Source of the DNA: Flavobacterium potami
GTDB taxonomy: Bacteria > Bacteroidota > Bacteroidia > Flavobacteriales > Flavobacteriaceae
Assembly: GCF_020026915.1 (NCBI RefSeq)
Contig: NZ_JAINUY010000001.1
Span: forward strand, 372,001 to 436,000
Direction of reading: 5' to 3'
DNA length: 64,000 nt
Shown in pieces: positions 203 to 602 of the stretch (its first letter is position 1; each line of letters begins with the position of its first letter). The translations under genes and the position numbers were made by a program. Below the pieces are notes generated by a model. It saw nothing but the letters and a program-made list of their open reading frames with translations, made no database searches and had not been told where the DNA came from.

Positions 203-443
203 AGAAAATAAAACTACGCAAAATAATTGCGCAGTATCATTTGAATCTTTGTTCAAGAAACAAAAAACGTTCTTATAAAAAATGAAATGACATCAAAGGA
301 AACTTTGATTTACAATATCAAACAAGCCTTGTTGGGTGTTTCTACATAGCACCATTGTAGGAGACTTTTCGCGAAAGCGTATGATGTTTTTCTATCCAGC
401 TTGGTTTGGAGGTTTTGATGGTTTTCCAAAAAATTATCCGCAC

Positions 444-510
444 TCTATGTGTCATGGGTTCGATTCCCATTCGCAGTAATGCGATAGCTCAGTCAGGTTA
501 GAGCAATAGA
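444..510 (+). ncRNA. tRNA-mimic module 1 (permuted, no anticodon loop)
   Basis: Read in permuted order the parts match canonical tRNA spacing. TCTAT (444-448) is the 3' anticodon-stem strand, followed by a 5-nt variable loop (449-453). The T-arm is ATGGG/CCCAT with loop TTCGATT (454-470). The acceptor TCGCA/TGCGA (471-475, 480-484) is capped by GTAA, a GNRA tetraloop. TA follows at 485-486. The D-arm is GCTC/GAGC with a GG-containing loop (487-504), then a single A. ATAGA (506-510) pairs back with TCTAT. Only the anticodon loop and two acceptor pairs are missing, so it cannot be a working tRNA but would fold like one. Confidence 0.65.
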
Positions 511-515
511 AATTT

Positions 516-585
516 GCAGGTTCGAATCCTGCATCAACTTATGGTTGATTGGACGAATTGGTAAGTCAACAGACTGAAAATCTGT
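516..585 (+). ncRNA. tRNA-mimic module 2 (permuted, Phe-like GAA anticodon arm)
   Basis: The T-arm is GCAGG/CCTGC with loop TTCGAAT (516-532). The acceptor is ATCAAC/GTTGAT (533-538, 544-549) with a TTATG loop. The D-arm is GAC/GTC with a GG loop (552-567). One base follows, then an anticodon-type arm ACAGA/TCTGT with loop CTGAAAA (569-585), which would present GAA. This is a tRNA opened in the variable region instead of at the acceptor end. No normal 5' and 3' acceptor ends or CCA are present, so it is not an ordinary tRNA-Phe gene. Confidence 0.6.
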
Positions 586-602
586 ATTTCCAGAGACCAT
601 CA

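Follow-up and report, generated by a model that had tools for sequence, protein, structure and literature searches.

Organization of the locus

The stretch of DNA analysed here, referred to as the window, comprises 64,000 nucleotides of the Flavobacterium potami genome (contig NZ_JAINUY010000001.1, positions 372,001 to 436,000). Close to its start, positions 309–865 form a conserved structured element which contains two tandem permuted tRNA-like modules and lies directly upstream of a slipin gene. The features of the locus, in window coordinates, are as follows.

215–233, palindrome (no strand assigned): operator TACGCA-N7-TGCGCA, the sole such site in the window
244–251, + strand: putative -7-like promoter box AATCTTTG
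312–440, + strand: conserved 5' domain, from the 20-sequence alignment
444–510, + strand: module 1, permuted tRNA mimic, from sequence, Rfam match and covariation
516–585, + strand: module 2, tRNA mimic permuted by opening at the variable loop, from sequence and covariation
594–865, + strand: 3' domain of the element, ending in a T-run, from conservation
598–616, + strand: hairpin CATC/GATG with loop ACTCTTAAAAA, directly 3' of the module array, 91.3% paired
962–2059, + strand: slipin family protein (365 aa, Band_7/SPFH), directly downstream of the element

In the alignment with relatives, conservation extends from about position 309 to about position 865, i.e., over some 550 nt. The preliminary description of this DNA had placed the element at 416–602, about 190 nt, which is too short, since the 5' domain possesses supported helices of its own. 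These are formed by 323–328/403–408, 331–335/396–400, 357–363/389–395 and 370–372/377–379, along with the hairpin 336–338/350–352 (GTG-TTTC...-CAC) and the hairpin 417–421/434–438, whose loop carries the invariant CCAAAAAA. Over the 29 pairs of this domain, 97.4% of the alignment cells are paired, and 50 cells have changed on both sides as compared with 19.5 after shuffling. On the 3' side of the array, the stem of the 598–616 type varies in several distant loci, where, as judged by eye, a similar loop is retained. An Rfam scan of positions 1–960 returned nothing credible for either the 5' or the 3' domain, and no intrinsic terminator was detected between the 3' domain and the slipin gene. Matches to the Flavo-1 RNA family occur near homologous elements and outside them (L080:6580–6668, L087:2726–2879 and L087:1218–1295).

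Structure and covariation of the tRNA-like modules

In both modules, the T-arm is succeeded by a hairpin of acceptor type, closed by a short cap, and then by the D-arm. Module 1 is closed by a 5-bp helix equivalent to the anticodon stem (444–448/506–510), followed by a 5-nt variable loop (GTGTC, 449–453), the T-arm (454–470), a capped acceptor (471–484) in which the strands TCGCA (471–475) and TGCGA (480–484) are joined by GTAA, the equivalents of U8-A9 (485–486), the D-arm (487–504), and an unpaired A505 in the place of residue 26; the anticodon loop is absent. Module 2 consists of a T-arm (516–532), an acceptor helix ATCAAC/GTTGAT (533–549) capped by TTATG, a D-arm (552–567), and an anticodon arm (569–585) with the loop CTGAAAA and the anticodon GAA. 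The main features of the two modules had been proposed beforehand, and they can be read directly in the sequence.

The modules were then evaluated for covariation. A DNA search over 199 related genomes gave 26 matches, from which G035 and G089 were dropped as spurious 27-bp matches in genomes where the element is absent, leaving 24; the alignment itself comprises 20 full-length sequences, i.e., the window and 19 from relatives. Of the cells belonging to the 42 named pairs, 92.9% are paired, and changes on both sides are present in 30 of the 42 pairs, so that the two tandem circularly permuted tRNA mimics claimed for this region do exist at 444–585 and are kept by covariation. Over the 42 pairs, 120 cells have changed on both sides; shuffling gives 35.4 ± 4.5 such cells, and sliding the partners gives no more than 29. 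Compensatory change affects all five pairs of acceptor helix 1 and all six of acceptor helix 2, the weakest helix of the array being the D-arm of module 2 (74.5% of cells paired in the same 20 sequences). Compensatory changes had been expected in both acceptor stems and in an outer helix enclosing the two modules; the stems bear this out, while the outer helix does not, with 65.8% of cells pairing (65.3% when shuffled) and no compensatory change. Although 417–422/596–601 does pair in the window itself, it fails over the 20 sequences, and the local hairpin 417–421/434–438 is kept in its place (97.0% of cells paired).

T-arms with five standard pairs are sparse in this DNA. On the + strand of the 64-kb window there are only three, namely these two and that of tRNA-His, with one further on the - strand, and among 2000 dinucleotide shuffles of positions 61–960 only 56 contain even one. 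A simple test for a hairpin after each T-arm was passed by 139 of 187, as compared with 275 of 3740 shuffled controls, while the thermodynamic z-score is modest on its own (-2.08).

A plain tRNA pseudogene is ruled out by the covariation. ARAGORN called no tRNA at the element, which has neither the canonical order nor the free acceptor end of a tRNA gene, and the Rfam tRNA match at 543–606, barely above the cut-off (29.3 vs 29), arises from the D- and anticodon arms.

The slipin gene as a constant neighbour

The gene product encoded at 962–2059 contains a Band_7 domain (PF01145), and hydropathy indicates no transmembrane segment, the highest Kyte-Doolittle mean over 19 residues being 1.22. To our knowledge, no RNA partner has been described for the SPFH family in bacteria. 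Among the 199 related genomes, a slipin match was found in 36, and the RNA modules are present in 35 of these, the exception being a 74-residue slipin fragment. In 34 of the 35 the modules lie upstream of slipin on the same contig; in the remaining genome (G023) they are on different contigs. Within a sample of 395 genomes of the phylum, slipin was matched in 21, with T-arms upstream in all 20 with at least 48% identity and none upstream of the lone paralog at 29% identity.

Altogether 115 distinct slipin loci were collected, 113 of them with 900 nt of upstream sequence, and a 5-bp sense T-arm occurs upstream in 110 of the 113. Antisense 5-bp T-arms were not found upstream of these genes, nor any downstream (0/98). 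The three loci lacking one are L063, in which the best alignment begins about 400 nt inside the gene, and L277 and L278, which have 4-bp stems. Because 80 loci had been picked by the RNA, the count was redone on loci fetched by the protein. This set holds 58 distinct loci, of which 55 have a full-length gene and 900 nt upstream; L233 (67 nt upstream), L248 (a 67-aa slipin fragment) and L271 (the 29% paralog) were left out. A 5-bp sense T-arm is located upstream in 53 of the 55 and downstream in none, a count over loci which include near relatives and are thus not independent. These T-arms are situated at least 213 nt before the slipin start. When 4-bp stems are allowed, the numbers become 55/55 upstream, 3/55 downstream and 8/55 upstream on the other strand, and the 5-bp count is preferred since this background is appreciable.

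At one locus (L046 / L239, genome G103), a stop interrupts slipin and the RNA has a single T-arm, which seems to be a case of joint decay.

Distribution of the element

A pattern built from the 5' domain alone matched at least 117 stretches among genome contigs, and 80 loci are represented among the matches listed, from Flavobacterium, Chryseobacterium, Tenacibaculum, Aquimarina, Kordia, Dokdonia, Winogradskyella, Maribacter and other genera. A T-loop follows downstream in all 80 of these listed loci. In 78 of them the first is 116–134 nt away, while for the other two the distance is about 210 nt. Slipin is found 519–995 nt downstream in 74 of the 80, and the sequence of the remaining six stops no more than 830 nt from the pattern. 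The covariance model of the 5' domain (R1) detected one copy in the F. potami genome and was positive in 13 of the 395 genomes of the phylum sample, all in the order to which F. potami belongs; divergent forms from other families, which were reached via slipin, escape this model. In 90 arrays, the number of T-arms is one in 4, two in 73, three in 10 and four in 3, tallies which take in a few chance matches within the domains. The anticodon loops vary by species and include GAA, CAA, AAA, GTA, TTT and CAT.

The loci selected by the protein belong to Bacteroidota, to Pseudomonadota, including E. coli, and, in one record so labelled, to Bacillota. Slipins with 34–42% identity are encoded in E. 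coli, Citrobacter, Photobacterium, Burkholderia and a record labelled Subdoligranulum (Bacillota). The elements of Photobacterium and Burkholderia read as canonical-order tRNA-like genes. Those of E. coli and Citrobacter show a single T-loop with a 4-bp stem, then a 6–7-bp acceptor-type hairpin and a vestigial D-arm, and the T-arm is missing from the predicted minimum-energy fold of the 63-nt E. coli piece. The homologous slipin leader was matched in 1627 of 5426 complete E. coli genomes, and slipin is the sole annotated feature among the 12 leader matches listed. A record labelled Limnohabitans (L119) carries an element of the Flavobacteriales type and is probably a misbinned contig.

A phage origin was also considered and ruled against: the 5'-domain pattern had no match in viral contigs, and DNA comparison with phage records gave none either. 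The slipin sequence had one weak partial match to phage.

Operator, promoter and RNA-repair neighbourhood

The degenerate form of the operator, TRCGCA-N7-TGCGYA, has four sites in the 5.69-Mb F. potami genome, all within this locus: two before a tRNA-like element and a gene for a 746-aa protein, one before rtcB, and one before the element described here. A reversed control gave no sites in the same genome. Of 89 homologous RNAs, 53 have the core CGCA-N7-TGCG within the 300 nt that precede them. By eye, AATCTTTG or AATATTTG can be recognized 3' of the operator in many Flavobacterium loci, and we take AATCTTTG to be a putative -7-like box of the Bacteroidota type. A WYL-domain regulator is encoded near the locus. 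A sigma54-like site is located about 315 nt before slipin in both E. coli and Citrobacter. In Citrobacter, rtcR adjoins slipin and a nucleotidyltransferase gene is on the flank too, while in E. coli the gene after slipin encodes RlaP, an RNA-repair nucleotidyltransferase (loci L277, L278 and L281 for the two genera). One E. coli strain also has a zeta-toxin-family gene after slipin. The constancy of slipin, the operator common to rtcB, and the RlaP and rtcR neighbours together place the element in an RNA-repair response.

RtcB is encoded near the element in many loci, as are tRNA arrays. At least five same-strand tRNA genes are predicted upstream in 28 of the 80 named loci and at least one in 45, with up to 18, a count in which 19 of the 80 loci have less than 1.5 kb of upstream sequence. 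In these loci, between 14 nt and 6.2 kb separate the 5'-domain motif from the nearest upstream tRNA. At least one tRNA is predicted in 13 of 20 Flavobacterium loci, a few of these being the RNA's own modules. No tRNA genes occur upstream at the locus of the window itself. Loci bearing arrays include L096, L081, L123, L109, L086, L077 and others.

About 16 kb upstream of the window (F. potami C26, L212:1863–2244), there is a second unusual RNA-like region, which consists of a tRNA-like element whose acceptor is ordinary and whose anticodon loop is swapped for an insert. It is surrounded by five copies of GGTCAA-N7-TTACTTC, is located upstream of the 746-aa gene and rtcB, and folds alone no better than shuffles. 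The 746-aa protein (L212:2305–4542; L252:5407–7086) has only a sub-threshold RING-type zinc match, and shares 54% identity with the product of a gene that immediately follows slipin in a different genome. As a guess, it might be a Ro60 substitute in the regulon. Elsewhere in F. potami, a DUF5724/DUF4132 gene (L029:8097–13226) is split by an in-frame stop at codon 1145, a point at which the frame continues in three relatives.

Proposed function of the element

From its sequence and surroundings, it is likely that the predicted RNA works with slipin in response to damaged tRNA. For the form that this would take, we propose that the element, once transcribed, may yield an RNA that is induced by damage and serves as a scaffold, bringing slipin together with tRNA-handling enzymes; we put the chances of this a little short of even. 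The RNA would be transcribed upon induction by damaged tRNA through the WYL regulator (RtcR/sigma54 in Enterobacteria), its conserved domains would hold slipin, and the capped tRNA shapes would dock enzymes which read the tRNA elbow, rather than being aminoacylated. Judging from the fold, capped acceptor stems could not be aminoacylated, and the mimics are thus most likely docking shapes. The whole might resemble a Y RNA-like tether, with slipin standing where Ro60 would. Covariation, fixed synteny and co-inheritance with slipin, the operator common to rtcB and the three-phylum spread support such a scaffold. Against it, the number of modules varies from one to four T-arms among the 90 arrays, which is odd for a precise scaffold, and there are canonical-order elements in Photobacterium and Burkholderia and a reduced module in E. 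coli.

The main rival to a scaffold is a cis-acting leader, in which slipin expression would be controlled, through mimics within its own mRNA, by a tRNA-binding protein or by a signal from damaged tRNA. Since there is no terminator before slipin, the element may be merely the 5' part of that mRNA, and in the loci selected by the protein it precedes the same gene in the sense orientation, the 5-bp T-arms being positioned as described above. The sigma54-like site of E. coli and Citrobacter would likewise place the module in a leader. However, some 550 conserved nucleotides carrying several mimics seem far beyond what a leader needs, and in 28 of 80 relatives the element is downstream of same-strand tRNA arrays, as the product of a tRNA operon could be. 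We consider a leader possible, although on the unlikely side.

Alternatively, the mimics might be decoys that absorb anticodon nucleases or other tRNA-cleaving toxins. The anticodon loops differ among species, as an arms race would produce, tRNA arrays and RtcB are close by in many loci, and the idea has already been published for YrlA (in the excerpt of PMC7790460). Module 1, however, has no anticodon loop, a decoy requires neither a fixed slipin partner nor large conserved domains, and, in the same excerpt, YrlA fragments were not detected in Salmonella (PMC7790460). A decoy thus appears improbable, and the platform role is preferred over it. A degenerate, functionless remnant of a tRNA gene array is barely credible: the modules do resemble halves of true tRNAs, and many relatives have arrays upstream, but the compensatory changes in both acceptor caps, the T-arms and the 5' domain already contradict it, and 53 of the 55 loci selected by the protein would not have retained a mere remnant before slipin.

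Extending the scaffold reading, we tentatively suggest, while thinking it rather doubtful, that a Ro60-independent, vault-like bacterial ribonucleoprotein exists from Flavobacterium to E. coli, in which a soluble slipin assembly and its own RNA with one to four tRNA mimics would be induced by RNA damage alongside RtcB or RlaP. If slipin and the RNA do form a ribonucleoprotein, these slipins would gain a role and RNA repair a new component, and the function of the Y RNA tRNA mimic would become testable in E. coli.

Comparison with known systems

The major vault protein resembles slipin in combining an SPFH-type shoulder with a long helix, and vault particles also contain RNA. Homology of the N-terminal half of slipin to the vault protein, in which R-repeats precede the SPFH shoulder, was not above background, and a Foldseek search with this half gave no row at E ≤ 0.001.

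The closest counterpart among known RNAs is the Y RNA YrlA, to which the preliminary description had assigned the element. The YrlA covariance model (Rfam RF02553) does match positions 429–534, but its 38.4 bits (E value 1.1e-6 over 960 nt) fall short of the gathering score, which is 69. At the gathering score, YrlA is absent from 18 related loci scanned. The TROVE/Ro60 domain (PF05731) has no match in the F. potami genome, and one of the 149 family genomes scanned encodes the protein, with 1 of 14 positive in the control set (Deinobacterium). A true Y RNA operating with Ro60 is ruled out by the sub-threshold score and the missing TROVE protein. In addition, YrlA measures 90–150 nt according to PMC8394870, as compared with about 550 nt conserved here, so that what survives of the Y RNA assignment is the YrlA-like module 1 and the permuted mimics, not membership of the family. 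The preliminary description had also overlooked the slipin neighbour, the operator, the flanking conserved domains and the distribution beyond a single phylum.

The likeness to YrlA (crystal structure 6CU1, as named in the excerpts of PMC8394870 and PMC11472068) lies in the permuted T-arm, capped acceptor and D-arm closed by an anticodon-stem equivalent, and in the neighbourhood of RNA-repair genes. Permuted tRNA mimicry as such is therefore already known, as far as the excerpted YrlA reports describe it. There, the tRNA-like domain of YrlA is described as tethering PNPase to Rsr. YrlA has one tRNA-like domain and a Ro60-binding basal stem, whereas the slipin-linked element has one to four modules and its own 5' and 3' domains, with slipin replacing Ro60. 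The terminal enclosing stem of YrlA has a proposed equivalent here which does not covary; as the ends of this RNA are placed by conservation, it may have a different terminal stem.

With respect to gene organization, the Salmonella rsr-yrlBA-rtcBA operon likewise unites RtcB and a tRNA-mimic RNA in one stress regulon, as excerpted in PMC7790460. It employs Rsr (Ro60), RtcA and control by RtcR, in contrast to slipin, a nearby WYL regulator and no Ro60 in F. potami. The trn operon and TrcR regulon of Anabaena place the slipin gene alr0740 under the same regulator as rtcB and a tRNA array (excerpt of PMC10272220). TrcR differs in being a ribbon-helix-helix repressor of dispersed genes, and a tRNA-mimic RNA is unmentioned in that excerpt (PMC10272220).

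Among the papers listed by the literature searches, none showed the apparent combination of tandem modules in a long RNA, a slipin partner and three-phylum spread, and none showed a vault likeness; priority is uncertain, and an earlier mention is possible. Permuted tRNA mimicry, known from Y RNAs tied to Ro60, is encountered here in tandem, in a much larger element, and tied to an SPFH protein.
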